Below, in pieces: positions 2,473 through 41,871 of a stretch of 41,871 nucleotides of DNA. This DNA comes from Kiritimatiellia bacterium. Its GTDB lineage: Bacteria > Verrucomicrobiota > Kiritimatiellia > RFP12 > UBA1067. The stretch is taken from positions 1 through 41,871 of the forward strand of contig JAKSOZ010000012.1 of assembly GCA_024405265.1 (NCBI GenBank), given 5' to 3'. The notes below the pieces were generated by a model. It was not told the origin of the DNA. It searched no databases and was given only the letters and a program-made list of their open reading frames with translations. Position numbers and translations under genes: made by a program. Numbering within the stretch: position 1 is the stretch's first letter; every line of letters begins with the position of its first letter.

Positions 2473-3618
2473 TCAGTTACCATGTTGTATCGGCTTCCAG
2501 CGATGTTGAGGATGAACTACGCTGTAAGCTACAGTAGCGGACAAAATCAAAACGAATATCGGGAACGAAAGAATCGGCAAGAACAGCGAGCGGATCGAAT
2601 AACGGGATAAGAACGTCGCGAGCAATGCCGAGGCCCAACAAAATGCAAAATAGCCGACCAAGAACCCCATATCCCCTTCAGCTATATCGAGCAACAAAAG
2701 AATCGTACCTGAAAGGCCGAGAGTGATAATAGCGAAGCAATCGAACATCCGAGGCGTCGGCATCTTGATGAGCGCCATAAGCCAGACGAATAGATAGTGT
2801 CGAATGATCTGCAAGCCGCCGGTAGCCCAACGGCAAAGCTGTCGCCACATAGGCTTGAACGATATAGGCTGCTCGTCGAAGAAGACCGCATCGTCAACAT
2901 AGACAACGCGATTACCGCGAACATTTTGCTGAAAAGCGAATTCAAGATCTTCAACGAACGTCTTCGTATTCCACCCCTCTTCGGGCAATACCGAAAGTCG
3001 AAACGCGAATCCGGTTCCGGTAAGCATCGAACTTAACATCAAATTCGCGCGGACGCGATTGGAAAGTTCGTTCATCAAATTCCAATAAACGGAGTACCAA
3101 CCCGTGATCAGATTCTTGAAAGCATTCGAAGCCATGCGATGACCGGTAACTATCTTGGCTCCACGAGCCATAGCCGCGTTCAACCGTTTGAGCCAGAATT
3201 TATCGACCTCGTTGTCGGCATCTACGATAGCGAGCGCGTCGTATCCGTTATTCTTTATAAGTTCGACTCCCCAATGCAAGACATCGCCCTTTCCTGACGA
3301 AGGAGAAGACTTCTCATAAACTTTGACGCGAGAGCCGAAAGCGTTGGCGATCTCCGCGGTTCGATCGGAACAATTATCTGCGAAAACCACTATATCGAGC
3401 TTTTCTTCAGGATAATCGGAATTAAGAAGCGATTCAATCGGACGATGGATGACGACTTCTTCATTATGAGCGCATATTATACACGCGAAACGGAGGATCT
3501 GATCATTCTCAAGAGGAATCGATTCTTTACGTTTAAAAATGGCGACAAACAATCCCAAAAGGACGACTGCCGTCGACCAAATGAACATGAGACCGATTAT
3601 GAGCTTGAAAGTCACCAT
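2473..3618 (-). CDS. Membrane-bound family 2 glycosyltransferase
   Basis: The 381-residue protein starts with a membrane segment (about residues 7-27), followed by a cytoplasmic GT-A domain and several C-terminal membrane segments (from about 273 onward). The GT2 motifs are visible: CAHNEE (49-54), DNCSDRT (81-87), VDAD (132-135, metal/nucleotide-sugar binding), VEDLE (222-226, catalytic base region) and QLCRW (260-264). This is the architecture of processive, BcsA/IcaA-like polysaccharide synthases, though the protein is shorter than cellulose synthase and has no PilZ domain. Its start overlaps the UPF0126 gene by 7 bases. It may make or extend a surface glycan; the product sugar is unknown. 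Confidence 0.88.
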   Translation of the reverse strand: MVTFKLIIGLMFIWSTAVVLLGLFVAIFKRKESIPLENDQILRFACIICAHNEEVVIHRPIESLLNSDYPEEKLDIVVFADNCSDRTAEIANAFGSRVKVYEKSSPSSGKGDVLHWGVELIKNNGYDALAIVDADNEVDKFWLKRLNAAMARGAKIVTGHRMASNAFKNLITGWYSVYWNLMNELSNRVRANLMLSSMLTGTGFAFRLSVLPEEGWNTKTFVEDLEFAFQQNVRGNRVVYVDDAVFFDEQPISFKPMWRQLCRWATGGLQIIRHYLFVWLMALIKMPTPRMFDCFAIITLGLSGTILLLLDIAEGDMGFLVGYFAFCWASALLATFLSRYSIRSLFLPILSFPIFVLILSATVAYSVVHPQHRWKPIQHGN

Positions 3619-27398: not shown

Positions 27399-30300
27399 TT
27401 AGTTATTCTTCGTACAAGTCGTTTTGATAAAGGTGGCAGGAGCGAGGACCGTGATCTCCGCGTCGCCGCTTCCGTTGAGTGTAACAGGAGTATCGTTGAC
27501 CATCAAAGCGAGCGACGAATATCCCGCTCGAATTTCAGCGTGAACGATAAGCGTATTGCCTTCGATCGCGAGACCCTCTTCGTCGACAATGCCGTCCTTG
27601 ATCCAGAGCTTCGTCCCCTTCGTTTCGATAAGCACGATCGGGATAATCGTTAGCGGTTGATCTGAAACGATCACCTTGGAGATGTCGATCGTATTATCTT
27701 TGGAAGACAAGACAACGAACGAAATCGTACCGTTCTTGATATAATACCCTTCCTCAGCAGTGTAAGTAACCTCTAACTTCGTTCCTTCCATGACCGAAAT
27801 CATATTGTCGGAATCGGGCTCGACAAGCTGTCCATCAGCCTTAACCGTAACAGTAGTATGCTCAATGGTCGGGATGATAATGCCCTCGACATTGATCTTC
27901 TCAGCATAAAGCATTCCATCTCTCACCACAGGTTGATACTTCATGGGCTGACCGTTAGTCTTGATCTGAATATATGTGGGGAGCTTGATGCCTTCAGTAA
28001 TACCGCTGAGAATCGGAGCACTGTCATCGTTAACGACAGCGGTAAGAATATCAGGAAGATCAATATTGAAACCTTCCGGAATGGTAATGATATCGCTCCC
28101 CTTCGTGGTGTCAATCGCCTTGACCGACAATCTGCCACTACCGACCAAAGTACCATCACCAGCTAAAGTTCCGACCGACAAATCGGATCCGACATCAAGC
28201 GTCGCGCCGTCATGAACGATGATTGTAGCGTCAGTCGCGGAAACGGCAGAACGGCGGGTCGCGAAGGTTCCGCCTTGGACGTTAATCGTACCATTACCGT
28301 TGATTGTCAAGTTAACAACCGCAAAGACATTCGTGCCTGTCTTGGAGAGCGTTACATCATTAGACATATTCATCGTAACAGCAGACCATTGTCCTCCAAC
28401 CAAACCGAAATGTTGTGTACCACCGATGGTCGAGTCTTTGGTCACATTAAGAGTTTTAATCGGATATGCATGGTTCGAATAAGTTGAATCGAGACCGTTA
28501 ACCGCCTTATTATTTACGAAAGAACCTCCATCAAGAGTCAAAACCGTCGTTGATGCTCCGCTTAAACCATTTTGATCGAACGAAGCTCCATCCTTAACGA
28601 TAACTTCTGATGCTCCAACAAATTGAGAGTTAGAGTTCATCTTGAAATCGGAAGCGGTTACGATAACCGGCTTATTGCCCGTAATCGTCCCCGTGTAAGT
28701 TCCATTATCATTGAAACGAATAAAGCCGTTATCGATATTGAAACCGACATTATACATCGAACCGGGAACGATGAATGTACCGAGGCCGATCTTACGAATC
28801 GGGTTAATCGTGCCGGAGAAATTATATGGGTAAGCGGTAGTTTCTTCACCTTCATTCATTGCTACGAAGGTAATATGCGTATTCGCGCCAAGCGAAACCA
28901 TGCCCGAAATACGCGACTGAAGATAGAGGTCACCGCAGAATCCCGTCGCATCGACAGGTGCATTCAGAATGTAATCGGGATTATCATTCGGAGTTGCAAC
29001 GTCACCTAAATCTTCGAGCGTCAAGAACTTGAATTCATGTTCATCTAAGGTATAGCTCGTGTCAGAATTCTTGACCGTTACGCCATTAGCCGTAATGACG
29101 TCATTAACCTTAATCGCCTTGACTTCATCGGCATTAATGGTGACATTACGCTCACCTTCTGTCGGCCAATTGATAACCGAACCATTGGACTTCTTCCACG
29201 AATTTTCTCGCGTCCAAACATTGCGCTCATCGTCATCGCCGCCCATATCGGCCGGATCGGCCTGACGCGTATAAAGACCATCGTCTTCAACTTCGACAAG
29301 CTGAATACCTGCGAGACCCAATCGTCCGTTCGATTTGTCAGGATAGGTCAAATAGATGTTTTCAATCGTTTCACCTGCCGCAAGACCAAGAGCTGCCGCG
29401 GACATACGATAACGGATATAGTTCGTACCCTCGACCATAGTCTCAGAGTCGCAATACGCCGCGCCGTTCCAACGCGTATCGGCAGTAGCGGCAATTGTGG
29501 AGCCATGTCCGTCACCTGCGAAGTATTTCCATTCGCCGTCATTGGCCTTAACGCCGATTGGAAGAAGTGAAATCGTTTCCGCAGTCTGGTCAGAAGCCTG
29601 GTAAATATAAAGGTCGAAAATCTGATAAGGAACGTCCGAGATACCGACTTCCCAGAAGAGCTTCCCGGTCGGAGTGGGCTTAAGGACACGTGTTTCGCTC
29701 GTTCCGTCGACATCCTGTGTTATCGTGAGCGCGGCAGTTGCGTTATCACCACTTAAGCGTTCCGAATCATCAAAATACGAATAGGTGAGCTTACCGTTAC
29801 CGGTCGTTTGCTTATTACGCCCACCAAGACCACTGCCGGCATTTACAAGATATGAGTTCGGCATATAATAGAATACTCTTGTATTGGCCAAAACTTCGCC
29901 GTTACCATCCTTAACCTTGAAGATTTCGGTGGTACCGGCGTCATTGTTATTGTAATCCTTCGAGTGATTCCAGAATATGCCCACGACCGGGAAGCCGCCG
30001 ACATTTTCATCCAATTCACCGATATGACCTTCGGTTGCGCCACGAGGACCGAACTTAATCGAAATCGAGTTCGTCTTCTTGATTAGGAGCAAACGATTAT
30101 CAATGATTTTCGCAAGTGCGTTCTCAGGCAAGTTGGTAAACGTGAGTTCTGTCGGCGCGATAACCGTCATCGGATCGATATCTTGCATGATACCGGTAGC
30201 GCCCGACTCAAACGATTCCAATTGTTCGCTCGTAAAGGTATATTCGGTTTCGGAATGGAGTTTACCGAAGTAGATAACCCCATCATGGACCACGCAGTCA

Positions 30301-33300
30301 GCGGTGATATCCTCTGCGTTTTCATCAATGATAGTGAGTCCCGTAGGAATCGAAGTAACACCTTCAACAACCGCGGCAATCTTGATAAACTTCGCAGGAC
30401 GAGTGATTTTGATCTTGGCATTGTTATGCGTTGGACCGAGCGGAATTTCTTGGAAATGTCCATCAGTCAGATCAAGAGTTTCGGAATTGAGAATAAGACC
30501 ATTAGTGGTATTGATAATACCGATTTCAGTATCCGTATGATAGATTTCCCAACCGGTCGGGAGATTGACCGCAGCAAATCCGGCTCCGTACGTAATCGAT
30601 GTTTTAGCGGTAATCAAGGGAAGCGGCTGACCTACCTGCGCTGCAGTAAGAAACTCGGGAGTCAAAGAAGAGCCGTCATATTTCGCCTCGGGTCCGAGAA
30701 TGAGCTTGCCGACGCCTTCCGCTTCACCTCCGACCAAACCGATGCCGGAGATTAAGCCGTTAACCGTAATTGAGCAGTTCGCGGAAAGACAATTAACGGA
30801 GCCGTTCAAAACCAAGTTCTTAACGACAGGCTTCGTACCGGCGGTGTAATTCTCTAGGTCAAGTGTCGCGCCGGAGGCGATTTCAAGCGTTCCGTCGGAG
30901 ATTCTCGGCTGCGCACCGCTATTATGCGCGAGTCTGAGTCCGCCGCTTGTGACGAGAATCTTGCCCGTGCCGGTAACTTGAGGGCAAGACATATAGGCCG
31001 GCTGATTGCCGATGATTTCGAGAGTATGCTCGCCTAATTCGATAGCGGTCGAGTTATTAAAGTGAAGCGAAAGGCCACAAGCGAAGCCATCACAATTGAT
31101 TGTAGCATCCCCTTCTAGAACGAGTTTGGAAATCGGGAATGCCGCTTTAATATCACTATGATGTGCCGCGGAATTTTTGTATGTCGCGCCTTCTTCTAGC
31201 GTCAAGCAATAAGTCGCGGATTGACTATAACCATTGCTCATTCCGTTCATATCAAGTGCCGCGCCGGTTTTGACGCGAATCGCACGATTGACGCCATAGG
31301 CGCCAAGGCACTTATTGTGACCCATCTTCAAAGTACCGCTCCTGACAAGAACGCTACCTGTAAAGCTGGAGTTATCGGCCGAAATCGTAACCGAATTACC
31401 ATCTCCCGCATTAACGGCAATCTGACCGATACCTTCAGTTTGACAAGTTACAACCCCATTAACCTCTCCGGGAGTATTGTAGCTGATAGTGCCGTTATCG
31501 ATATTGAAGGCATATCCATACATTGAGCTCGGAACGATAAAGGTACCGAGACCGACCTTGCCGATGGGATGCTGCAAGTTCGAGAAGGTATAAGGATACG
31601 CGGTAGTCTCTTCCGCGGCATTTTCTTCATCGCTCTTATTTTCATCAATACCTGCAACGAAGATTACGCGCGTTTCATCGCCGAGCGCAATCGCATCGGA
31701 AATACGAGCTTGGAGATAGAGCTTACCGGCAAAACCCGCTGCGCTAAGCTTACCGTTGATTACATAATCAGGGTCTTCCTTTTCTAAAGCTACTTCACCG
31801 AGATCCTCCAAGGTCTCGAAGCGGAACTCCGATCCTTCTTCGGAGGCGGTGTTGGTCAAAGTGATCATATCCGCCTTGACCTTAGTATCAACTATAATCT
31901 TTGATACTTGATCAGCATCGATGTTGACAAAAGGAACGCCCTCAACCGGCCAATTGACGGCATTACCGCCGGCATCGATCCACGATCCTTCCGCAGTCCA
32001 CTTAAGTTGCTCGTCGGTCGCATCCACAGGATCTGCACGGCGCGTCAATGTCGAATCGGTCGGAATCGTATAACTAGCGGTCTTATTATCAAGATTAAGT
32101 GTAGCATTAGCGGTAATCATTACCGAGCCGACATAGATCTGAGTTTTCGTCAAATCAAGTGAGCCAGTACTCTGTCCATGATATGTGAAAGTTCCATTGC
32201 AAAGCGTTAAAGTTTCACCTGGAACATAGCTTTCGGGGAATGTAAGCAAAGCCCCGTCTTGAATCGTCAGGCTACCGGGAAGTGCTGTTGTCGGAAGTTC
32301 GAACCTTCCTGCTTCGACGATGACATTTCCGGTGTAGCTACTTGGCAAGTTGACCTGGGGCTTGCCGGTATCGGGTGCATTTATGGTTAAGTTCCCCGAT
32401 AATGCTCCCGAAACTCTAAATGTAGCTTCTTCAGTCGGCGCGAAGACAAGCGAGCCCGCATGAGTATTCAAAGTCGGAATATCAACCGCCTTGGTGAACT
32501 CGAGAATGCCTTCTCCGTAACGATGGAGCGCGGCATCACCGGTATTAAGACGAACTTCGCTCTTGATTTGAAGCTTGGAATTCTCACCGACATACATCGC
32601 AAGGCCACGCGTTTGATCCGAAGCGAGAACTAACGCCGAAGCGCCCTTCTGCTCGATGACTGCCGGCTTATTCGTCTGATCGCTCGTCGAAGCGGGGACA
32701 TAAATCTGAGCGGTTTCTTCAGATGTGCCGCCTTGCCAACGGAAACAACCTTCTCCGGATTTAAGTCCGAAATTATGGCTGACATACGCCCCCGGGTCAA
32801 GGTAAAGGCGCTGACGATAGAAGAAAGTTTCAGAACCATTTTGAATAAAATTGAGTCTTCCTCCTTCATTAACACGGATAACACCGGTAATATTCGCGCC
32901 TCCGCTCCAACCACTCAAGTCGTTAGCGGTAAAATTAAGGGTCGCTCCGTTTTTAACGAGAACTGTCGGGTTGTCGTCTGTGTGTCCGGTTGCGAAAAGG
33001 TTACCGGCATTATTACGATACTTCATCGTGTGGACACCGGATTCGAAAATTAGGTGCGACTTCATCTGCGATGCGAGCGAAGCCGATATATTATAGTCGA
33101 GATGAACACCGGTAGTTTCGGAGCCGAGGAACTTGAATGTATTTCCCGAAGTACGGACAAACGAAAGGTACTCAGCACTCGGCGTAACATCCGCATTTGA
33201 AGCATCGATAACAAGCGTAAACGTTCCGGTCAAACCGGAAGCATTGAGGTTAAGCGGAAGTTTCTCCGCGCCAACGACATCAACATTACCCGATCCCGAG

Positions 33301-34883
33301 AATATAATAGCCTTCGCATTGATTGTATCAGATGTATCGATTGCAAGAGTCGAGTTGGCAGCAACTTCGATATTGACAATCAAATCATCCTGCCAATCAA
33401 CGGTCTTACTGCCATCCGACCAAACAAGATCACTCCAGTTGACATTACCCTCGATTGTCGTCGACAGGCTTGAGGAAGCGACATTGAAGAAGTCAATCGG
33501 CTCCGCGGCTGCAAGCTGCGCAATCTGCTCATTATTGACAACGTAATTGTAAATCGCATAATTTGCCGTCAGTGCAGGAGAAGGACGCTGATCATTGAGT
33601 CCCTTTGTACCCATAATCAATTTCGTGAGCGCATGAACCTCGCTTCCGCCCCAAATCTTGTTTTCTCCGCCTGGGTTCCACGTAACAACTTCCGTCCCGT
33701 TTGCGTAAATTTTAATGGAATTATCCCCTAACGAGGTAATGACAATATTCTGCCATTTATTCGGCGTATAGGGAATCGGCGTATCAAGCGAAGGGAAGCT
33801 TTTGTTGTTGTATATTTGAAACGCGTTATCGCCGTTTGCAACGTTCTCCAACTTATATTGCACATCGCCGATGTTAAATCCACACAAATCGCGCCATTGA
33901 TTCATCCCGTTGGGATTCACCCAGAAGCTTAGCGTCCACCCGGTATCATAGCCGACAAGGCCGTTTGACTCGTCCGCTAGTACATACGAACCTGTTACAT
34001 TTTGACCATTGCCGCTGGAAAGAGCCTTTGAGCCGAACTGCGAATTATCAGCAAAGGTTGGCGTACCATCGGTATCAAGTTTTCCTTCGATCGAAGCCGT
34101 ACCGAGATTCGTAGCGTCTCCATCAAGCGGGAAGTAATACTTCATCTCCTTCGGCTCGGGGAAAACGAAATCGGCGAAGTCAGTCGTCGTTCCACCGGTG
34201 TAGTGAATACCTTTGAAGATAGCGATGCCTTCAATCACAAGCCCATCTGCGGAAGGATTGGTAGCCGAGTTAATAGCTCCACCGACAGAGAATTTGCTTA
34301 TTGTTTTACCCGACCATTGTAGCTGCGATCCGTGACCACCTGAAAGCGAAGCGAGCGTAGCTCCGTAATAAACCGAGGTTCCTCCGCTGCCCATCTTCGC
34401 AGACATGAGTAGATAGCCCGACTCACCAATGGCGCTACTCGTCGTACATCCATTATAGTCACCGGCGCCTTCGATACAGCCATCAATCGTTCCATTTCCG
34501 GCAGCTTTCATACGAACACCGCCGCGATTACCGTTGCTAACTTCATAGCTCATGAGCGCGCGGCGTTGATCGGGAGATGCGGTGAACGACTTATACTTAA
34601 TCAGGATGACACCCGACGAACCGAAACTCGCGGTATCACTGATTGTTATCAGCGCACCTAAAGAATTACCGGTGGTCTGATTAATGGTTAAGGCATTTTC
34701 GGTAACCAAATTGCCGCGCGGATCGAGGGTATAGGTTATACCATCGGTAGTCTTCGCGGAAGCGGACTTGAAGTCACCTCCCCACACCGCGACAGGAGTC
34801 GGCGCTGCCCAGACCGCGGCAGAAGTGAAAACGAGAGTGAGCGCTAAAACGAGATAGCGATTAAAGATATTCTTAATGATCAT
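27399..34883 (-). CDS. Giant secreted protein with LamG domain and beta-helix-type repeats (2494 aa)
   Basis: I chose the ATG at 34883 because GGAGG (34890-34894) lies 6 bases upstream; an ATG at 34904 has no such site. The protein then starts with a signal peptide (MIIKNIFNRYLVLALTL..., cleavage after AVWA). Domains in order: an N-terminal LamG-like region (about 20-240), a clear LamG/concanavalin-like domain (about 245-460), then glycine/asparagine-rich beta-repeats typical of parallel beta-helices. Two related 200-residue modules occur near 955-1155 and 1878-2078. The C-terminus has a beta-sandwich-like domain (IPTIEHTTVTV...) also seen in the protein at 38089. I see no autotransporter barrel or PEP-CTERM anchor. 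It may bind surfaces or glycans. Confidence 0.85.
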   Translation of the reverse strand: MIIKNIFNRYLVLALTLVFTSAAVWAAPTPVAVWGGDFKSASAKTTDGITYTLDPRGNLVTENALTINQTTGNSLGALITISDTASFGSSGVILIKYKSFTASPDQRRALMSYEVSNGNRGGVRMKAAGNGTIDGCIEGAGDYNGCTTSSAIGESGYLLMSAKMGSGGTSVYYGATLASLSGGHGSQLQWSGKTISKFSVGGAINSATNPSADGLVIEGIAIFKGIHYTGGTTTDFADFVFPEPKEMKYYFPLDGDATNLGTASIEGKLDTDGTPTFADNSQFGSKALSSGNGQNVTGSYVLADESNGLVGYDTGWTLSFWVNPNGMNQWRDLCGFNIGDVQYKLENVANGDNAFQIYNNKSFPSLDTPIPYTPNKWQNIVITSLGDNSIKIYANGTEVVTWNPGGENKIWGGSEVHALTKLIMGTKGLNDQRPSPALTANYAIYNYVVNNEQIAQLAAAEPIDFFNVASSSLSTTIEGNVNWSDLVWSDGSKTVDWQDDLIVNIEVAANSTLAIDTSDTINAKAIIFSGSGNVDVVGAEKLPLNLNASGLTGTFTLVIDASNADVTPSAEYLSFVRTSGNTFKFLGSETTGVHLDYNISASLASQMKSHLIFESGVHTMKYRNNAGNLFATGHTDDNPTVLVKNGATLNFTANDLSGWSGGANITGVIRVNEGGRLNFIQNGSETFFYRQRLYLDPGAYVSHNFGLKSGEGCFRWQGGTSEETAQIYVPASTSDQTNKPAVIEQKGASALVLASDQTRGLAMYVGENSKLQIKSEVRLNTGDAALHRYGEGILEFTKAVDIPTLNTHAGSLVFAPTEEATFRVSGALSGNLTINAPDTGKPQVNLPSSYTGNVIVEAGRFELPTTALPGSLTIQDGALLTFPESYVPGETLTLCNGTFTYHGQSTGSLDLTKTQIYVGSVMITANATLNLDNKTASYTIPTDSTLTRRADPVDATDEQLKWTAEGSWIDAGGNAVNWPVEGVPFVNIDADQVSKIIVDTKVKADMITLTNTASEEGSEFRFETLEDLGEVALEKEDPDYVINGKLSAAGFAGKLYLQARISDAIALGDETRVIFVAGIDENKSDEENAAEETTAYPYTFSNLQHPIGKVGLGTFIVPSSMYGYAFNIDNGTISYNTPGEVNGVVTCQTEGIGQIAVNAGDGNSVTISADNSSFTGSVLVRSGTLKMGHNKCLGAYGVNRAIRVKTGAALDMNGMSNGYSQSATYCLTLEEGATYKNSAAHHSDIKAAFPISKLVLEGDATINCDGFACGLSLHFNNSTAIELGEHTLEIIGNQPAYMSCPQVTGTGKILVTSGGLRLAHNSGAQPRISDGTLEIASGATLDLENYTAGTKPVVKNLVLNGSVNCLSANCSITVNGLISGIGLVGGEAEGVGKLILGPEAKYDGSSLTPEFLTAAQVGQPLPLITAKTSITYGAGFAAVNLPTGWEIYHTDTEIGIINTTNGLILNSETLDLTDGHFQEIPLGPTHNNAKIKITRPAKFIKIAAVVEGVTSIPTGLTIIDENAEDITADCVVHDGVIYFGKLHSETEYTFTSEQLESFESGATGIMQDIDPMTVIAPTELTFTNLPENALAKIIDNRLLLIKKTNSISIKFGPRGATEGHIGELDENVGGFPVVGIFWNHSKDYNNNDAGTTEIFKVKDGNGEVLANTRVFYYMPNSYLVNAGSGLGGRNKQTTGNGKLTYSYFDDSERLSGDNATAALTITQDVDGTSETRVLKPTPTGKLFWEVGISDVPYQIFDLYIYQASDQTAETISLLPIGVKANDGEWKYFAGDGHGSTIAATADTRWNGAAYCDSETMVEGTNYIRYRMSAAALGLAAGETIENIYLTYPDKSNGRLGLAGIQLVEVEDDGLYTRQADPADMGGDDDERNVWTRENSWKKSNGSVINWPTEGERNVTINADEVKAIKVNDVITANGVTVKNSDTSYTLDEHEFKFLTLEDLGDVATPNDNPDYILNAPVDATGFCGDLYLQSRISGMVSLGANTHITFVAMNEGEETTAYPYNFSGTINPIRKIGLGTFIVPGSMYNVGFNIDNGFIRFNDNGTYTGTITGNKPVIVTASDFKMNSNSQFVGASEVIVKDGASFDQNGLSGASTTVLTLDGGSFVNNKAVNGLDSTYSNHAYPIKTLNVTKDSTIGGTQHFGLVGGQWSAVTMNMSNDVTLSKTGTNVFAVVNLTINGNGTINVQGGTFATRRSAVSATDATIIVHDGATLDVGSDLSVGTLAGDGTLVGSGRLSVKAIDTTKGSDIITIPEGFNIDLPDILTAVVNDDSAPILSGITEGIKLPTYIQIKTNGQPMKYQPVVRDGMLYAEKINVEGIIIPTIEHTTVTVKADGQLVEPDSDNMISVMEGTKLEVTYTAEEGYYIKNGTISFVVLSSKDNTIDISKVIVSDQPLTIIPIVLIETKGTKLWIKDGIVDEEGLAIEGNTLIVHAEIRAGYSSLALMVNDTPVTLNGSGDAEITVLAPATFIKTTCTKNN
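28655..29275 (-). repeat. Internal protein module copy 2 of the giant LamG protein
   Basis: This stretch encodes about 200 residues starting with TRQADP, then ENSW..INWPTEG, GDLYLQSRIS, TTAYPYNFSG and KIGLGTFIVPGSMYN. It matches the segment at 31430-32045, which has the same motifs in the same order. The pattern points to a duplication inside the gene. Confidence 0.8.
31430..32045 (-). repeat. Internal protein module copy 1 of the giant LamG protein
   Basis: This stretch encodes TRRADP, then EGSW..VNWPVEG, GKLYLQARIS, TTAYPYTFSN and KVGLGTFIVPSSMYG. It pairs with the copy at 28655-29275. The DNA has diverged more than the protein, so the duplication is not recent. Confidence 0.8.
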
Positions 34884-34889
34884 ATTCTT

Positions 34890-34894
34890 CCTCC
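34890..34894 (-). promoter_or_regulatory. Ribosome binding site that fixes the start of the giant LamG gene
   Basis: GGAGG on the minus strand lies 6 bases before the ATG at 34883-34881. It sits within the codons that follow an upstream ATG (34904), so the downstream start is the likely one. Confidence 0.75.
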
Positions 34895-34922
34895 ACAAAT
34901 TCATTTTTGATTTTCCAATAAA

Positions 34923-35351
34923 TCATTGCTCCATCGATGCGGGATTCAAAATATCAAGATCGGGGAAAAGCGTTTTGAAGTGCTTCTCATTGCGAGTAAT
35001 CAGTCCCCCTCCAATGCTCTTTGCATATGCCCCAATCAATACATCGGCTATCGGGCGTTTAATCTCTTCACCTGTCCGCTTACGCTGCACATGCCGATAC
35101 CACGAGTGATACGCCTCACGAACAACATCGTTGTTACTACCGAAATCAAACATAATCCAGTGTGATTCAAGAAACGCATCTTGTTCAAGTTGATTACCAC
35201 TAAAGCACGGCGCCAATTCAATATATGTAATGGGAGAAATAGCAAGAGGACAATCAAGTTTGCTATTCAAAACCTGTGCCGACGACGACGCGAAAGTCGG
35301 GTCATTGGTAAAAATATCAATAAGCACGCAAGTATCGACAACCCACGTCAT
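34923..35351 (-). CDS. PIN-domain nuclease, VapC-type toxin
   Basis: The 142-residue protein has the PIN layout: DTCVLIDIF near the N-terminus (first acid, D6), PITYIEL (Glu), RPIADVLIGAYA (Asp) and TRNEKHF near the end. VapC toxins cut RNA with these acidic residues and a metal ion. The start codon overlaps the stop codon of the previous small gene (TAATG at 35353-35349), so translation is coupled. It has no VapB-type partner that I recognise; the 89-residue protein upstream is its only nearby partner. It ends 39 bases before the giant LamG start. Confidence 0.85.
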   Translation of the reverse strand: MTWVVDTCVLIDIFTNDPTFASSSAQVLNSKLDCPLAISPITYIELAPCFSGNQLEQDAFLESHWIMFDFGSNNDVVREAYHSWYRHVQRKRTGEEIKRPIADVLIGAYAKSIGGGLITRNEKHFKTLFPDLDILNPASMEQ

Positions 35352-35620
35352 TATTCTTCACCCTCCCTCATCTCGCGCATATACATCTCGGTCGAGGCAA
35401 TATCAGGAATATACTTTTTTGCAATGCCGATAGCGTCCATAAAGTTTGGTCTACGGGCAACTTTCGTATTTAAGATCGATACATTACCGACTACCTGTCT
35501 AATGATCAATCCATTGAGACAATATACATTTGCAATGCCCTTCTCGCGAAGGTTATATTCTTGTGCCTGAAGGACAGCCTCCTCACCAATAGATGCGATT
35601 CTTTCTACGAAATTAGGCAT
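35351..35620 (-). CDS. Small antitoxin-like protein between a zeta-like ATPase and a PIN toxin
   Basis: The 89-residue protein has an N-terminal helix, then the segment KGIANVYCLNGLIIRQVVG. This resembles the small partner proteins often encoded after zeta-like ATPases (pattern GIPNVYxxNGxIxxE). After residue about 55 it continues with a helical, charged tail (DAIGIAKKYIPDIASTEMYMREMREGEE is split here: positions 62-89), longer than I would expect for that family. It overlaps the ATPase gene by 8 bases and the PIN gene by 1 base. I infer an antitoxin, possibly for both neighbours, but no DNA-binding motif was recognised. Confidence 0.65.
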   Translation of the reverse strand: MPNFVERIASIGEEAVLQAQEYNLREKGIANVYCLNGLIIRQVVGNVSILNTKVARRPNFMDAIGIAKKYIPDIASTEMYMREMREGEE

Positions 35621-36191
35621 CAGCTACTCCTTCCATGAACAACTTGAACAAATGCTTCGACAGGACGTGAATATCACTTTCGCCATACGCAGCGATTGCT
35701 ATGTTACATCCGCCATTATAGAGCATCACCCACTTATCAACTGCCTTCGAGTACTTTTCGATGAAGTTCTTCTTGCTGCGATAGAACCGACGACGAACAT
35801 CTTCGTCGGGAACATAATGTCCTCCGGTCTTGACTCGCACAGCAATACGTGCGATACATACTTCAGGATTATCGAGGAAGGTATAAATAATCGCCGTCTC
35901 ATAGCCGAGCGACTTCGCTTTCTCGATGACCTTCAAGTAGACGTTCCCCGAAAGCGTCGACTCAATCGCGAAAGAAGTCCCCGCGGCAAAAAGCTCTTCG
36001 ATGCGCTTTAAGGTTTCTTTGCCCGCTTCGATTTTCGCCGCGGTCGGCTCGGCGGGATTTATCTCTCGCGCGATGTCGTCGGGGTTCACGTAGACAAGCG
36101 ACTCCGCAGGCAGGAGTACTTTGGAAATAGTACTCTTGCCGCTACCATTGGCGCCGGCTAAGATATAGAGCTTTTTCACCACGATTGACAT
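35613..36191 (-). CDS. Zeta-toxin-like P-loop ATPase/kinase
   Basis: The 192-residue protein has Walker A GANGSGKST (residues 13-21), VNPDDIAREINP with the acidic residue seen in zeta toxins, SFAIESTLSG (substrate-binding segment) and GHYVPDEDVRRRFYRS (arginine-rich lid). Such COG4185-type proteins are close to zeta toxins, which phosphorylate UDP-sugars of the cell wall. The first ATG (36191) overlaps a TATAAT hexamer, so if that is a real -10 the true start could be a GTG at 36182 or 36179. It is the first gene of a three-gene set with a small antitoxin-like protein and a PIN toxin. Action as a toxin is inferred. Confidence 0.82.
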   Translation of the reverse strand: MSIVVKKLYILAGANGSGKSTISKVLLPAESLVYVNPDDIAREINPAEPTAAKIEAGKETLKRIEELFAAGTSFAIESTLSGNVYLKVIEKAKSLGYETAIIYTFLDNPEVCIARIAVRVKTGGHYVPDEDVRRRFYRSKKNFIEKYSKAVDKWVMLYNGGCNIAIAAYGESDIHVLSKHLFKLFMEGVADA

Positions 36192-36240
36192 TATATCAAA
36201 TTTTAAGCGCCCTCGTCATCAAGAATCTTCAAATACAATT

Positions 36241-36266
36241 CGCGGCAGTCCCGAAGAACCGCCGCG
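36241..36266 (-). terminator. Conserved hairpin copy D (UUCG loop), after the DUF4160 gene
   Basis: Read as minus-strand RNA, 11-base arms CGCGGCGGTTC and GGACTGCCGCG enclose a UUCG tetraloop, with two G.U wobbles. It is one of four near-identical copies (others at 36889, 37404 and 38036), here between DUF4160 and the zeta-like gene. No long T-run follows; it probably stops or protects transcripts. This copy lacks the promoter seen next to the others. Confidence 0.6.
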
Positions 36267-36302
36267 TATTAATCTATAATCAGCTATTACCTGAATGTGG
36301 AT

Positions 36303-36581
36303 TCAGCAATAATATGATGCTTGCCCGAATCGTTCCGTCCATTTGCGAACAATTAGACGATATTGCGATTCGATAACTCGACGAACCGATTTCAACTTAT
36401 TCGCGGGGATCTTACCTTTGTTGTGACACACTACTGTTCCGCCGGACTTAGTGAGCCAAATCTTCGTATCCTCCGGTTGCGGAACCGCGTCTGTAACATG
36501 AACATGAACAGGTTCTAGAGGATTTCCTTCGCCTATCCAAAAATAAACGGTGTAAGGGCCGACATCAAAAACCCGAGGCAT
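36303..36581 (-). CDS. DUF4160 family protein
   Basis: The 92-residue protein has the DUF4160 pattern: MPRVFDVGPYTVYFWIGEG, a conserved PVHVHV segment (family PPHFHV), and a helical, basic C-terminus. DUF4160 proteins often occur in pairs with a DUF2442-like or similar small protein and are thought to be toxin-antitoxin parts, though evidence is limited. A strong ribosome site GGAGGA lies 8 bases before the ATG, inside the end of the upstream gene, which it overlaps by 17 bases. The pair is bounded by hairpins at 36889 and 36241. Confidence 0.78.
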   Translation of the reverse strand: MPRVFDVGPYTVYFWIGEGNPLEPVHVHVTDAVPQPEDTKIWLTKSGGTVVCHNKGKIPANKLKSVRRVIESQYRLIVRKWTERFGQASYYC

Positions 36582-36834
36582 TAAGGAATCCTCCTGTCTC
36601 TGAATATTCGTAGATTAAATGAGCTCCGTCTTCAATAATCTGCTGATACTCCTTGAGTTCTTCTTCACTAAAGCCCTCGACATCACTCCATTGATAAGAC
36701 GGAAGCATACAAGTGGCCGCTTTAAAGCCACGCATAATCGGCTGCTCAATGCAAACGCGAATCTGCCCATCCGCAAGCTTCTCGGAATGAGCAATCATCG
36801 TATTATCATCAAGCGTCATAAACGGATACATCAT
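36565..36834 (-). CDS. Small partner protein of DUF4160, antitoxin candidate
   Basis: The coding region is 89 residues from the ATG at 36834. I preferred this start to one at 36930 because the family-like sequence begins at MMYPFMTLDDNTM and an AAAGGCGGTGA site precedes it; the longer frame would run through the promoter and hairpin at 36859-36914. Further segments are HSEKLADGQIRVCIEQP, ATCMLPSYQW and a C-terminal acidic helix. Similar small proteins are found next to DUF4160 genes. It is the first gene of a two-gene unit. The role as an antitoxin is inferred from the pair, not from a motif. Confidence 0.65.
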   Translation of the reverse strand: MMYPFMTLDDNTMIAHSEKLADGQIRVCIEQPIMRGFKAATCMLPSYQWSDVEGFSEEELKEYQQIIEDGAHLIYEYSETGGFLNASGF

Positions 36835-36858
36835 ATATTCACCGCCTTTCACCAAAAT

Positions 36859-36887
36859 ATTATACCATAGTCCTCTTAGGAAAACAA
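36859..36887 (-). promoter_or_regulatory. Promoter of the DUF4160 pair (TTGTTT-17-TATAAT)
   Basis: TTGTTT (36882-36887) and TATAAT (36859-36864) are 17 bases apart on the minus strand, with TATGG before the -10. The -35 starts 1 base after the hairpin at 36889-36914. Two more copies of this hairpin-promoter unit lie at 37373 and 38005. Confidence 0.8.
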
Positions 36888-36888
36888 G

Positions 36889-36914
36889 CGCGGTAGTTCT
36901 TTCGAACCGCCGCG
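36889..36914 (-). terminator. Conserved hairpin copy C (GAAA loop), after the DUF3791-type pair
   Basis: The minus-strand RNA has arms CGCGGCGGTTC and GAACTACCGCG around a GAAA tetraloop, with one C-A mismatch and one G.U wobble. It starts 2 bases after the stop codon of the 74-residue gene and is followed 1 base later by the promoter at 36859-36887. Confidence 0.65.
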
Positions 36915-36916
36915 TA

Positions 36917-37141
36917 TTAGGCCAATGCAAGCATCAAATATAACTGCTCGGAACTGTTATGCCAAAGTTTAGTGGCTTCATCGGCAAGCTTTTTATAAAA
37001 CGGCATCGCGTAGATTCGGCGCATCGCTTCCAATGTCGTTATGCCGCAATCTTTCGCCATAAGTTCAGCCATTCCCGCAATCTTCCAAGGCAAAAGGAGA
37101 TGCACATTCTCTTGCGTTATTTCTCCAGTGAACGCTATCAT
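36917..37141 (-). CDS. Small protein, partner of the DUF3791 protein
   Basis: The 74-residue protein carries LLLPWKIAGMAELMAKDCGI, then MRRIYAMPFYKKLADEAT and KLWHNSSEQLYLML. I have seen similar layouts (a LLxPxKI start, a Y..L..E.TK.W centre) in small genes next to DUF3791 members, so I treat the two as a pair. It overlaps the DUF3791 gene by 4 bases and ends 2 bases before a hairpin. Its activity is unknown. A toxin-antitoxin role is only inferred. Confidence 0.6.
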   Translation of the reverse strand: MIAFTGEITQENVHLLLPWKIAGMAELMAKDCGITTLEAMRRIYAMPFYKKLADEATKLWHNSSEQLYLMLALA

Positions 37142-37356
37142 ATCTTTGCGCCTCTCACTTCCAGGAAGCGATTGATATAATCAAGCACCATATCAATTCC
37201 CATGGTATGAAGAATTTCATACTCTTCGTACAAGTAACTATCGACACCATACTTGGCGAAAAGCGTAGACACCTCTTCTCCGCCAATATGCTTGGCGGTT
37301 TTATATGCTTCCACGCAAAAAGCGACAAAAGCAACCTTTTTAGCTTCTTCACTCAT
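37138..37356 (-). CDS. DUF3791-type small protein
   Basis: The 72-residue protein fits the DUF3791 pattern: VAFVAFCVEAYKTAKHIGGE, EEVSTLFAKYGVDSYL and a C-terminal EILHTMGIDMVLDYINRFLE segment. It is the first gene of a two-gene unit driven by the promoter at 37373-37401, with its start about 17 bases after the -10. DUF3791 proteins usually come with a small partner gene, as here. The function of the family is unknown; a toxin-antitoxin role is inferred from the setting. Confidence 0.65.
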   Translation of the reverse strand: MSEEAKKVAFVAFCVEAYKTAKHIGGEEVSTLFAKYGVDSYLYEEYEILHTMGIDMVLDYINRFLEVRGAKI

Positions 37357-37372
37357 AAATCTCTTTTACTAT

Positions 37373-37401
37373 ATTATACCATAATCCCCTTCTAAATACA
37401 A
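37373..37401 (-). promoter_or_regulatory. Promoter of the DUF3791-type pair (TTGTAT-17-TATAAT)
   Basis: TTGTAT (37396-37401) and TATAAT (37373-37378) are 17 bases apart on the minus strand, with TATGG before the -10. The hairpin at 37404-37429 ends 2 bases before the -35. Confidence 0.8.
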
Positions 37402-37403
37402 CA

Positions 37404-37429
37404 CGCGGCAGTTCCGAAGAACCGCCGCG
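37404..37429 (-). terminator. Conserved hairpin copy B (UUCG loop), after the ParE-type toxin
   Basis: The minus-strand RNA has arms CGCGGCGGTTC and GAACTGCCGCG around a UUCG tetraloop. It lies 37 bases after the stop of the ParE-type toxin gene and just before the next promoter. Confidence 0.65.
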
Positions 37430-37466
37430 CTTGCTTAGCCTTAATCAGGGATTTGCTGAATAGGGA

Positions 37467-37766
37467 TTATCGAGCCAATGAGAGATGTTCGTCTATCCAA
37501 TCAGGATTGCGTTTATTGCCAATTACAGCATAAACAACAACGCCCGAATCTTCAATATCATAATAGATTGAATAAGGGAATCTACCTGAAAGCAAACGGT
37601 AAAACCCATAAACTCGAGTATGAATCCCGGCATACAGCGCCAAAGAACCGGCCTCTGAATATATCGTATCCGAGAAATAATCGCCTAGCCCTTCCTGCTG
37701 ACTATTGTAAAAATGCCAGCCGTCGACAATATCCAAGTGCGCGGATTTTGAGAACTTAACGCGCAT
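37467..37766 (-). CDS. RelE/ParE-superfamily toxin
   Basis: The 99-residue protein follows the ParE layout: an N-terminal strand (MRVKFSKSAHLDI), two helices, and the C-terminal beta-sheet motif FYRLLSGRFPYSIYYDIED followed by VVYAVIGNKRNPDW. ParE toxins inhibit gyrase, while RelE relatives cut mRNA; the sequence does not settle which applies. The gene overlaps its antitoxin by 11 bases, the usual order antitoxin-toxin. It ends 37 bases before a hairpin. It should be active as no key segment is missing. Confidence 0.87.
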   Translation of the reverse strand: MRVKFSKSAHLDIVDGWHFYNSQQEGLGDYFSDTIYSEAGSLALYAGIHTRVYGFYRLLSGRFPYSIYYDIEDSGVVVYAVIGNKRNPDWIDEHLSLAR

Positions 37767-37983
37767 AAGCTACAGCTTCTTTTAGACGGCGCTTCGATTC
37801 GTCGATAGAGATTAACTCGTCTTCACCTGACTCAACGCGACGACGACGTTCCGCCAAGACTTCAGCGTGCCAATGCGGCGCCGACACATTTCCTGCCGAA
37901 GACATAACCTTCCAAAGGAACTCCATTGATTGGACACGTTCTTCGGCAGTCATGTCATTTATTTGTTCTAGCGTAAAAGCCAT
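37756..37983 (-). CDS. Antitoxin of the ParE-type toxin (addiction-module family)
   Basis: The 75-residue protein has an N-terminal helix (MAFTLEQINDMTAEERVQSMEFLW) and a long acidic helix with RRRVESGEDELISIDESKRRLKE. This is typical of the unstable-antitoxin family placed before ParE toxins: xxSGExxxxxxxExxxRLR. A ribosome site (AAAGGATT) precedes the ATG, and the promoter TTGTTC-17-TATAAT lies just upstream (38005-38033). The C-terminal part should wrap the toxin. Like other antitoxins it probably represses its own promoter, but no operator was proven. Confidence 0.83.
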   Translation of the reverse strand: MAFTLEQINDMTAEERVQSMEFLWKVMSSAGNVSAPHWHAEVLAERRRRVESGEDELISIDESKRRLKEAVAYAR

Positions 37984-38004
37984 ATACTAATCCTTTCGAG
38001 AAAT

Positions 38005-38033
38005 ATTATACCATAATCCTCTTAGGAGAACAA
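38005..38033 (-). promoter_or_regulatory. Promoter of the ParE-type toxin-antitoxin pair (TTGTTC-17-TATAAT)
   Basis: TTGTTC (38028-38033) and TATAAT (38005-38010) are 17 bases apart on the minus strand, with TATGG before the -10. The -35 touches the extended base of the hairpin at 38033-38064. Confidence 0.82.
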
Positions 38034-38064
38034 TACGCGGCAGTTCTTTCGAACCGCCGCGTAT
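38033..38064 (-). terminator. Conserved hairpin copy A (GAAA loop), after the 38-41 kb LamG protein
   Basis: The 14-base arms (ATACGCGGCGGTTC and GAACTGCCGCGTAT) enclose a GAAA tetraloop in minus-strand RNA, with one G.U wobble. This is the longest of the four copies. It lies 24 bases after the stop of the LamG gene at 38089 and directly before the antitoxin promoter. Confidence 0.7.
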
Positions 38065-38088
38065 CGTTAGGTTTCGCTTAAGCGAAGA

Positions 38089-41000
38089 TTAGTCCTGTGC
38101 CGTGGGGAGCGAGAGCTTGAGCTGATAGAGGTGGGTGTTCGTCGCCCCATCACCACAGATCGTCGTCGTCACGTCTTCGACCGTAACAACCGCATTCGGA
38201 TACTTCTCCTGCAAAGCAGTCGCGGCATCCTCAAGACTCTCGGACGCGAGAATCGCCGCGAGATCTTCAGCAGTGATCTTGAGCTCAGGATCGTCCGCCG
38301 AGTTCTCAACCCCCATGAGGAAGCAGTTCACGTTGATCGAGGAAAGCCCGTCAATCGTCGTGATTCCGGAGGTCTCCGTAATCCACGCAGCGAGCTTTTC
38401 AGGATCAGCCGTCTGAATCGTCGCAGGAACGACATCCATAACGTTGTCCTCTGTAATCTCATCGATCGTCGTCGGTCCCGTCTGCGTCACCGTGATGCCC
38501 GGATCGAACGGCGTATCAATGTTCTGTCCGATGGAGGAATATTGAATTGAGAGCTCACCGTTCTCGTACGACGTCACACCCTGAACATCACTCGTGATCG
38601 CATAGCCCTTCGCAGGCGTGAAATAAATCACAACCGCCTGACCATGGATCGCAGCAAATGTACCGTTTTCTACTGCTGTGCGTTCACCACCGTTGATCGT
38701 ATAGGAGGCCGTAACGTGCTCGATATCGCTCTTAACTGCGATCGTGTACTCATTGATAGCCGTTTCAAACGTCAGCGAACCGACGGCGGAATCCTCGACA
38801 ACCTTGTCGATCGTCGTCGACTTGGTGTTCTCGCCGACGATATGATAGCCGGTCGAACCCTGATAAGTGACCGTAACTTCCGCGCCATACGGAACCGCGA
38901 TTTCGTTATTAGTCGCGGACTTCGTAACGCCATTGACGGTAACCGTATAGGACGTATGCTCATAGGTCGGGATCGTCAAGGTCTTCGTATCGACCGTAAC
39001 TTCAACGACATACGCGCCATCCTTATACGCCTTAACCGCATGACGATGCGTCGCCTCGGGAAGCGTAACCGTAACCTTCTCGTCTGCCTGATCAATAAGA
39101 CCGGTGAGCTGATAGGTCGTCGTTTCCATGACCTCAGAGATGTCGATCTCAGAGCAATCGAACGAAAGCGAACCGTTCGCGCCGAGCGTGACGGGCGTAC
39201 CGGCGAGCTTCAGCGTGCCATACGGAATCACAACAGGCGTATTGATGATCGCCGCATCAGACGCAGTGATCTCGCCAGCAGCCGTTGTAGGATCACCCTC
39301 TTCGACGGGCTCGACAGGATACGTACCGGGCTTGATCGTGAGCTCACCGGAACCGCCGATCGTCAGCGTCTCCGTCGCCTGCTTCGCATTGAGCGTCATC
39401 GACGAATCACCATCAACGGTAATCGTCATGGACGCGCCTTCCGCAGGAACCGTCGCAGCTTCCTTGGTCTTGTCATTCGTCCAAGTTGCCTCTTCTTCGA
39501 TAAGATTGACGTCACCGGCAATCGTACGCGTAAAGAGACCGTTCTCGGAAACGTAAGGATAGGCCGAGAAGAGCGCCTGAGTCTGCTTGTCCGAGAGGAT
39601 GTAATCGTAGACACGAATAGCGTTAATCGCGCCGGTTTCAGTCGCGACATCGGCTACCGCCTTATAAACGCCCTTGGCTTTGATTCCACCACCGAAGTCT
39701 GATCCGACCTGAATGCCGCCATAATTGGACTTGCCGAGACTGAAGCCGCTCGGAAGAGCAATCTGACCACGCTTCGTGCCGTCAACATAAACGGTCATCA
39801 CATCGCCTTGGCGAGTAATAACATACGCATGACGCGAAGTTGCGGCATTCGGCACGGTCGCATAAACGGCAGTTGCGGCATTAACCGTTCCGCCCATGGC
39901 AGTGGCGATCATAACCTGATCCTTCGTATCGGTCGTAGTGATCAGGAGCGAACCATAATCGTTATAGTAAGTATAGCCGATGCTGATGAACTGGGTATTG
40001 GCAGTAGGCGACATCTGACCGACGACGACAATGGAGCAGCCATTCTCGCCATTGAAGGCTGAATTGAAAGCACCGGCTGCACCGTCGATATACGGATGGG
40101 TGCGGAGCAAGCAACCGACGGTATCATCCCACTCCTCATTAGCGCCCTTTGTAAACGTTGCCGCACTATCCCACTTGAGGTTACCGGTACCGGGACGGTT
40201 ATAGGTGAAGTAACCGCCGCCACCACCGGCCTTGCCGATATCGGCCTTGTTATTCTTGAAGGTCAGATCGAAGACCGTCGCATTACCGTCGACGATACCC
40301 AGCGCGGAAGTGAACGTCGCCGTTCCATCGGTTACGGGAAGCGTCTCAAACTTCGTGCCGGCCGTATAGCTGATGGAGGTAATGCCAGCAGGAACATTCG
40401 TGAACGTCGCCGAACCGGTCTTCGCTTCCTCAATCGTCATCGTCGCACCGGCAACCGTCTGCGCGGGAGCGGTAATCGTCGGGATCGTAACTCCACTCAA
40501 GTCACGGGTCGTTCCGACATTAACGCCGTACGTACCGGCGGTCACTTCGGTAATCGTGCCGCTATCATCAGCAGCAACCGTATATTTAAGCTTGGAAATT
40601 TCAGTCAACTTTTCCGTGGAAACCAATTCCTGATAAACGCGGAGATCGTCAAGAATCACGCCGCTTACACGATCAAAGTTCGCTGTCGTGAGCTTGCCAC
40701 CCCAGCCACCATTTACGCCACCAATCTGATAATTCTTATTACCGGTCCAGTTGCGTCCCGTATACGAACCGACGGAAACACCGTCGACATAAAGCGTATA
40801 GGTTCCGGCGTTCGACGTAATCGCATACGAATGCGCCGCTGTCGGGTCGGTATTATAAGTAACGCCGACAACCATGTTCTGATCCGCCTCTGCTGCAGGC
40901 GCACCCCAAAGACGAAGCGTCACGGCGCCTGTCGTGCCATCCGTTGAGCTGGTCGGCTCGGCAAAGAGACCCAAACCTTCACCATTGCCGCCAATCGTCA

Positions 41001-41346
41001 TCATCGGAGCCGACTTACCCGCAGTCACCGTAGCAGGCGCCGTCATCTTAAGAACAATCGTCGCCGCGCCGGAGCCGAGCGCAAAATTACCTCCGTAGGG
41101 ATGGCACGAGCCATGAACAGTCTTCAACGCCTTACCCATCTCGGAAGCTTCGCAATTAGCCGCGCTACCCTTCTCGCCGTTGAAGGACAATTCGGCTGCG
41201 CCATAGCTCGTCAAGTACTGAGAGCCATCGAAGCGATACCAATGCTTCGGCGTAATACCGGTTTCATCGACATCCGCGTAGGCGTTGCCCGCGAGAATCG
41301 AGAGAATAGCTGCCGCGCTGATGCCGGCGAGAGTCTTTATACTCAT
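38089..41346 (-). CDS. Secreted LamG-domain protein (about 1085 aa)
   Basis: I chose the ATG at 41346 because the protein then begins with a clean signal peptide (MSIKTLAGISAAAILSILAG, cleavage near NAYA); an ATG at 41385 would add 13 charged residues. After the signal comes a LamG/concanavalin-like domain (about residues 30-250, HWYRFDGSQ to LDDLRVYQ), a linker, a second LamG (about 390-600, with YVDGTKRGQI and INAIRVYDYIL), then a beta-repeat region starting with LFTRTIAGD and a C-terminal domain (TIPTYEHTSYTV...) shared with the giant protein. The last 100 residues are acidic and helical. No membrane anchor is visible. The ribosome site is weak (AAAGAAAGTGA). It probably works outside the cell. 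Confidence 0.87.
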   Translation of the reverse strand: MSIKTLAGISAAAILSILAGNAYADVDETGITPKHWYRFDGSQYLTSYGAAELSFNGEKGSAANCEASEMGKALKTVHGSCHPYGGNFALGSGAATIVLKMTAPATVTAGKSAPMMTIGGNGEGLGLFAEPTSSTDGTTGAVTLRLWGAPAAEADQNMVVGVTYNTDPTAAHSYAITSNAGTYTLYVDGVSVGSYTGRNWTGNKNYQIGGVNGGWGGKLTTANFDRVSGVILDDLRVYQELVSTEKLTEISKLKYTVAADDSGTITEVTAGTYGVNVGTTRDLSGVTIPTITAPAQTVAGATMTIEEAKTGSATFTNVPAGITSISYTAGTKFETLPVTDGTATFTSALGIVDGNATVFDLTFKNNKADIGKAGGGGGYFTYNRPGTGNLKWDSAATFTKGANEEWDDTVGCLLRTHPYIDGAAGAFNSAFNGENGCSIVVVGQMSPTANTQFISIGYTYYNDYGSLLITTTDTKDQVMIATAMGGTVNAATAVYATVPNAATSRHAYVITRQGDVMTVYVDGTKRGQIALPSGFSLGKSNYGGIQVGSDFGGGIKAKGVYKAVADVATETGAINAIRVYDYILSDKQTQALFSAYPYVSENGLFTRTIAGDVNLIEEEATWTNDKTKEAATVPAEGASMTITVDGDSSMTLNAKQATETLTIGGSGELTIKPGTYPVEPVEEGDPTTAAGEITASDAAIINTPVVIPYGTLKLAGTPVTLGANGSLSFDCSEIDISEVMETTTYQLTGLIDQADEKVTVTLPEATHRHAVKAYKDGAYVVEVTVDTKTLTIPTYEHTSYTVTVNGVTKSATNNEIAVPYGAEVTVTYQGSTGYHIVGENTKSTTIDKVVEDSAVGSLTFETAINEYTIAVKSDIEHVTASYTINGGERTAVENGTFAAIHGQAVVIYFTPAKGYAITSDVQGVTSYENGELSIQYSSIGQNIDTPFDPGITVTQTGPTTIDEITEDNVMDVVPATIQTADPEKLAAWITETSGITTIDGLSSINVNCFLMGVENSADDPELKITAEDLAAILASESLEDAATALQEKYPNAVVTVEDVTTTICGDGATNTHLYQLKLSLPTAQD

Positions 41347-41427
41347 ACTATTTATCACTTTCTTTTTGTGTTTTAATTGCAACAAATTACTACACGCTCA
41401 AGGAGGTTGTCCCCTCGAACTGGTGAC

Positions 41428-41571: not shown

Positions 41572-41725
41572 AGCACGCTGGAAAACGATTTTGAGCACGC
41601 TGAAAAGCAAATCTCAGCGCGCTGAAAAGTAAAAGTCAGCACGCTGAAAATGAAAAGTCAGCGTGCTCAAAAACAAAAGTCAGCACGCTGAAAATCAGAA
41701 GTCAGCACGCTCAAAAACAGGCTCT
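41572..41725. repeat. Seven tandem 22-bp repeats (AGCACGCTGAAAA type)
   Basis: Units start at 41572, 41594, 41616, 41638, 41660, 41682 and 41704, each exactly 22 bases. The core is AGCACGCTGAAAA followed by a variable tail that often ends GTC. Unit 5 has AGCGTGCT, the reverse complement of AGCACGCT. Since 22 is not a multiple of 3 and stops occur in all frames, the array is not coding. Confidence 0.9.
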
Positions 41726-41776
41726 CGCCTCGACTCGACTTCCGCCCGTGTGAAGTTCAATCTGTGAGGCGGAGGT

Positions 41777-41808
41777 GCTTCCGGGGGACGAGGGGCTTCC
41801 GGGGGACG
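41777..41808. repeat. Two copies of a 14-base direct repeat
   Basis: GCTTCCGGGGGACG occurs at 41777-41790 and again at 41795-41808, four bases apart. Confidence 0.8.
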
Positions 41809-41814
41809 GCAGCG

Positions 41815-41849
41815 GCGAGTAGCTGTACTCGCTGAATCGCAAGCGATTC
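41815..41849. other. Two adjacent perfect hairpins
   Basis: GCGAGTA/TACTCGC (41815-41832, 4-base loop) and GAATCGC/GCGATTC (41834-41849, 2-base loop) each have a 7-base stem. They lie beside the direct repeats near the window edge. The role is unknown. Confidence 0.6.
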
Positions 41850-41871
41850 CCGGCAAGGAAAGCAAGGTCGA

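Follow-up and report, generated by a model that had tools for sequence, protein, structure and literature searches.

Four small gene units in the genome of an uncultured bacterium of a Kiritimatiellae gut lineage are stacked in one direction with a common boundary between them, a terminator-type hairpin with a housekeeping-type promoter that was probably copied from the end of a surface-protein gene to positions between unrelated toxin-antitoxin (TA)-type units. Each hairpin would form an RNA stem-loop of the terminator type that ends one minus-strand unit, and its U-rich tail would overlap the -35 element of the housekeeping-type promoter that starts the next. The hairpin appears to be native to a surface-protein gene family of this genome. 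Downstream of one such gene, the terminator and promoter would have been copied between the TA-type units by recombination or duplication, with the stacked units as the outcome. Insulated units with copied boundaries are likely on this evidence; we infer from sequence that the hairpins terminate, that the promoters are active, and that the units are insulated, as well as how the boundary was copied.

The locus and its gene units

The window (i.e., the whole stretch of DNA that was analyzed, 41,871 nucleotides) is a whole contig (C4) of a 1.71-Mb genome in 56 contigs that is 77% complete. The closest histidinol dehydrogenases in named genomes, at up to 90% identity, belong to uncultured Kiritimatiellae/Verrucomicrobia, a large number of them of ruminant gut origin. 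Two very large surface-type genes (38089-41385 and 27399-34904) enclose the four small units, and hairpins lie at the unit borders. Because all of these genes are encoded on the minus strand, the hairpins come after stop codons and the promoters point to the next unit. The units follow in the order ParE-like, DUF3791, DUF4160, and Zeta-like/PIN. Upstream of the first hairpin, the gene at 38089-41385 (start codon provisional) encodes a large surface-type protein with a Laminin_G_3 match. Tandem 22-nt repeats of the type AGCACGCTGAAAA... were seen beside surface-protein genes on two contigs (window positions 41572-41720 and L033:1740-1910). A dispersed repeat of about 80 nt (GGGGGACGGCAGCGG...AGCAAGGTCGA) occupies the contig end (window positions 41770-41871), where it is possibly the cause of the assembly break, and recurs on contig C2 near a copy of the hairpin (L001:1275-1350).

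Unit 1 has the gene order of a type II TA system, with an antitoxin gene followed by a toxin gene of known families. The Unstab_antitox protein (PF09720; 37756-37983) scored above the Pfam cutoff; the ParE-like toxin (PF05016; 37467-37766), in the expected place, scored below it (E value, 0.0058). Unit 2 encodes a DUF3791 protein (PF12668; PADLOC PDC-M13; 37138-37356) and a second protein (PADLOC PDC-M13C; 36917-37141), their genes overlapping at ATGA. In relatives, genes for DUF3791, DUF3990, and a third small protein follow one another with overlapping starts and stops, and such proteins constitute the PADLOC candidate system PDC-M13. The first and third of these genes touch in unit 2 and the middle DUF3990 gene is absent, so the full PDC-M13 set is not present. 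The first-pass annotation had read the units as toxin-type gene pairs, a description that does not hold for unit 2, where the expected toxin-like middle gene is missing. By its gene content, unit 2 appears to be a DUF3791 system that lost its DUF3990 gene, and it may be a leftover pair of antitoxin-type genes, i.e., a toxin-free remnant of a candidate defense or TA system. The nearest DUF3791 homolog (74%, in genome G032) likewise has no adjoining DUF3990 gene. DUF3990 belongs to the ADP-ribosyltransferase clan in Pfam (PMC7955679); our literature search found no mention of it together with DUF3791. Direct repeats (TCTACAACAGTAGAAATTAAGTCGAGGCCTTAGAC) with spacers, resembling a CRISPR array, were observed in G028 just downstream of a DUF3791-DUF3990 unit and near a contig end (L137:3780-3929).

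Unit 3 comprises a gene for an 89-amino-acid protein with no significant family (36565-36834) and a DUF4160 gene (PF13711; 36303-36581). The DUF4160 family is paired with DUF2442 in the described TA system dhiTA (PMC8198452); a family search gave no DUF2442 match for the partner found here. On contig C16 of G032, a DNA-similar copy of the 89-amino-acid gene lies beside a copy of the DUF4160 gene region. Unit 4 encodes a Zeta-toxin-like kinase (PF06414; 35613-36191); another 89-amino-acid protein, with no family (35351-35620); and a VapC-like PIN-domain protein (PF01850; 34923-35351). Judged by its place, the 89-amino-acid protein of unit 4 would occupy the position of a VapB-type antitoxin.

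Hairpins and promoters at the unit borders

The four 26-nt hairpins reported in the first-pass annotation lie exactly at 38036-38061 (H1), 37404-37429 (H2), 36889-36914 (H3), and 36241-36266 (H4), read on the minus strand. H1 is CGCGGCGGTTC-GAAA-GAACTGCCGCG, with a full stem of 18 bp (38029-38068). H2 has the same arms around a TTCG (UUCG) loop, H3 has a GAAA loop and one C-A mismatch, and H4 has a TTCG (UUCG) loop and an extra U-G pair. Their folding z-scores range from -3.0 to -8.7, and all are in sense orientation at gene 3' ends, where, as in intrinsic terminators, a stable GC-rich stem-loop in the transcribed strand sits just 3' of the stop codon. An Rfam search gave no credible match.

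Several features distinguish the two strands. GAAA and UUCG are stable RNA tetraloops only as read in the sense strand. The six copies of the hairpin in the genome contain nine stem pairs that are not Watson-Crick, namely eight that are G-U in sense RNA (A-C mismatches in antisense) and one C-A; several of the G-U pairs are common by descent, and those in H4 and in the copy on contig C31, at different positions, are separate changes. In every one of the six copies, the sense strand had the better minimum free energy (-14.6 to -20.6, against -11.3 to -15.7 for the antisense strand). Sense-strand tetraloops and G-U pairs suggest that the hairpin acts as sense RNA, which favors a function in the gene direction, as a terminator or a 3'-end hairpin.

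Read 5' to 3' on the minus strand, the module consists of a gene end, CGCGGCGGTTC-loop-GAACTGCCGCG, 1 or 2 nt, TTGTNN, 17 nt ending in TATGG, TATAAT, and the next gene. The TTGTNN -35 element, 17-nt spacer, TATGG-extended -10, and TATAAT are present behind H1, H2, and H3 as first described, and the hairpin and the promoter aimed at the next unit match the sequence at the boundary; the gap between them, given earlier as 0 to 2 nt, is 2, 2, and 1 nt, respectively. The predicted minus-strand promoters are TTGTTC-17-TATAAT with the TATGG extension at approximately 38005-38033 (P1), TTGTAT-17-TATAAT at approximately 37373-37401 (P2), and TTGTTT-17-TATAAT at approximately 36859-36887 (P3). H4 retains the TTGTATTT start in its tail and lacks TATGGTATAAT and the TATGG-TATAAT -10; unit 4 appears to use another minus-strand promoter, at approximately 36190-36220, with a TGATATAAT extended -10 at about 36190-36198. 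The promoter type behind H1, H2, and H3 is general in the genome, with 74 TGNTATAAT sites and 26 TATGRTATAAT sites in a 410-kb own-genome set (the window together with sampled stretches of about 368 kb in total). Weighing against the proposed reading, a general promoter scan of the region gave no excess over shuffles. The same layout occurs at L110:1686, where a tRNA-like gene end is followed by a hairpin of another sequence and then by such a promoter.

With a hairpin to end one unit and a promoter to start the next, each small gene pair would form a separate transcription unit. We consider a terminator the most likely role of the hairpin, with a U-rich tail that also serves as the following -35 element; this dual use would explain why the tails, although rich in U, are interrupted (TTGTTC, TTGTAT). 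A terminator scan was passed by two of the four hairpins, H1 and H3 falling below its T-count; with the interrupted U-tracts, this suggests that termination is perhaps partial or Rho-assisted, or that the hairpin is a 3'-end stabilizer.

Copies of the boundary in this genome and its relatives

Six copies of the hairpin were found in the 1.71-Mb genome at up to 3 mismatches, i.e., the four described here, within 1.8 kb, and one each at C2:30941 and C31:16413; a control search with the reversed pattern gave 0 matches. Because the genome is 77% complete, further copies may be missing. All six are oriented alike with respect to the gene before them and lie within about 40 nt past its stop codon. 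The C2 and C31 copies are 22 and 34 nt, respectively, past the stop codons of surface-protein genes whose C termini align with the large protein of the window, and the H1, C2, and C31 copies all lie 20 to 34 nt past the stops of one surface-protein paralog family. Six paralogs with the common C-terminal domain were identified, and the hairpin is absent behind three of them and present behind the three best scoring, whose top ranking is by construction since the search model was built from these three. The proposed link between the hairpin and TA genes was not borne out, as three of the six copies stand at the ends of surface-protein genes, and behind two of these three there are neither TA genes nor a TTGTNN-17-TATAAT promoter. 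The hairpin is therefore not specific to TA genes; it is best seen as the terminator of the surface-protein gene family, apparently re-used between TA-type units.

The modules fall into two subtypes: H1 and H3 are 94% alike over 33 nt, and H2 and H4 are 92% alike over 36 nt, with 64 to 76% across subtypes. This high within-type identity indicates that the modules are copies. Along the array the loops alternate (GAAA, UUCG, GAAA, UUCG) and the flanks alternate likewise, making H1/H3 and H2/H4 sisters; one possibility is duplication of a two-boundary block followed by gene exchange.

Relatives were compared by hairpin-only patterns and by BLAST of the whole region. In the same genus, homologs of units 1, 2, and 3 are separated by 26 kb or occur on separate contigs, and they lack the hairpin module. 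A search of 60 same-genus genomes, allowing up to 2 mismatches, found no copy of the hairpin other than matches at or within genes that we attribute to chance; the near-matches in G048 and G036 are of this kind, as they fall within coding genes or border unrelated genes. Because the units are unlinked and module-free in relatives, the array appears to have been assembled in this genome. The earlier proposal that units were gained or copied with their boundary stands as regards the rare hairpin and the unlinked, module-free homologs; a TA-specific hairpin and a special promoter are not supported, and the searches turned up no recombinase or site for one. Neighboring small-gene units in G029 (L139:2412-2490 and 3220-3300) carry promoter regions nearly identical to each other and unrelated in sequence to the present module, and the same was observed in G052 (L138:1795-1860 and 2717-2780). 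These analogous regions suggest that repeated boundaries may arise repeatedly in the group.

Possible insertion at the boundary, other readings, and known systems

The flank to the left of H2 (AAGCAAG) can pair with the one to the right of H3 (CTTGTTTT). Joined on a common core, they make an outer stem of 7 contiguous pairs and rank as the most stable among the 36 left-right combinations (-36.5 kcal/mol), compared with 1 and 0 outer pairs for H2 and H3 in their present form (-26.1 and -22.1 kcal/mol, respectively). The reciprocal combination, H3 left with H2 right, gains 5 pairs. When flanks were shuffled, 7 pairs arose in some non-cognate combination in 2.9% of trials and for H2/H3 in 0.2%, figures that overstate the significance because the flanks are related by descent. 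The pairing implies that taking out unit 2 would restore an older hairpin. One tentative reading, which we regard as somewhat unlikely, is that the hairpin core is an entry place, i.e., that DNA carrying a core and a unit integrates by a single crossover in a resident core and leaves a hybrid hairpin at either end; recombination over a short homology would suffice, and a dedicated recombinase would be unnecessary. The H2-left/H3-right arms, the best pairing of all, and the unlinked units of the relatives agree with it, but there is a single informative event, the comparison was chosen after the data were seen, H2 is able to pair its own outer stem with a bulge, and no relative is known to have an empty site. 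For unit 2, gain as a cassette at the boundary is nevertheless possible. The first-pass idea that new units insert at the boundary accordingly keeps one event, the H2/H3 arms that fit insertion of unit 2 into an older hairpin, with no recombinase or site found. A further reading, which we consider unlikely, makes the hairpin a landing site, where a single crossover in its core would admit each TA-type unit without any dedicated integrase. Every entry would then restore a full terminator on either side of the new unit and insulate it immediately, and boundaries that were entry points would offer TA genes a simple integrase-free route to accumulate in rows.

It is very unlikely that the hairpins are a dispersed DNA repeat, of the REP or MITE-like kind, that landed between genes by chance. 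REP elements are typically palindromic, GC-rich, short intergenic repeats, and the present GC-rich short palindromes between genes resemble them; however, the single orientation of all six copies, their positions near stop codons, and their RNA-specific features do not, and no transposase was noted beside them. We give hardly any credence to the hairpin being the organism's common terminator and its recurrence trivial. It does end surface-protein genes too, and terminators lie beside promoters elsewhere, but four of only six copies fall within 1.8 kb and other gene ends carry different hairpins; hairpins after genes are diverse in the 410-kb set, which holds no further member of this family. 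The first-pass annotation had conceded that a hairpin at most operon ends would be just such a terminator; the hairpin is rare, so that objection fails, and copy number refutes this explanation for the available 77% of the genome.

Just as improbable is that the hairpins serve in site-specific recombination, as integron attC or Xer dif-like sites, with the units as gene cassettes, although the 11-nt arms about a short center, the co-directional small units, and the TA genes they carry are reminiscent of dif modules and integron cassettes (PMC6449649, PMC11014356). No integron integrase scored over the family cutoff in this 77%-complete genome or in 34 same-genus genomes; the weaker matches, of a kind also found in 14 of 14 control genomes, are probably ordinary tyrosine recombinases such as XerC/XerD. 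No paired RYYYAAC/GTTRRRY motifs (attC R''/R' boxes) were found; for dif, the 28-bp XerC/XerD site in its E. coli-type consensus, the closest match anywhere had 8 mismatches, and the closest at the hairpins had 15. The centers also differ (GAAA, UUCG), and the tetraloops and G-U pairs of the sense strand are indicative of RNA.

Two things stand out at this locus, the copied boundary and the apparently split hairpin, and the locus as a whole is a small natural case in which stacked gene units re-use predicted insulating boundaries. Acinetobacter dif (pdif) modules are TA pairs bounded by short inverted-repeat sites (PMC6449649), an arrangement like the present one, except that the sites here are not dif-like (15 mismatches), have a variable 4-nt center, and are all in direct orientation. 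Chromosomal integron arrays similarly line up small co-directional units that include TA genes and have their own promoters, with a genome-specific repeat in between; here there is no integrase over the cutoff, there are no attC boxes, and the repeat is too short, and termination is reportedly not a function of attC sites (PMC11014356). Of PADLOC PDC-M13 (DUF3791-DUF3990-small protein), unit 2 retains the two outer genes without the middle one. Intrinsic (Rho-independent) terminators with GNRA or UUCG loops share the GC-rich stem, sense-strand tetraloop, gene 3' end, and U-rich tail, whereas here the U-tract is interrupted and one sequence is re-used at unrelated unit ends in one locus. TA clusters and islands are likewise tandem co-directional pairs of TA-type families (Unstab_antitox/ParE-like, DUF4160, Zeta-like, and VapC-like PIN); here, in contrast, neighboring units share a copied terminator-promoter boundary that is absent at homologous units in the relatives searched. 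Each part is ordinary, and one boundary copied between unrelated gene pairs is what is unusual.
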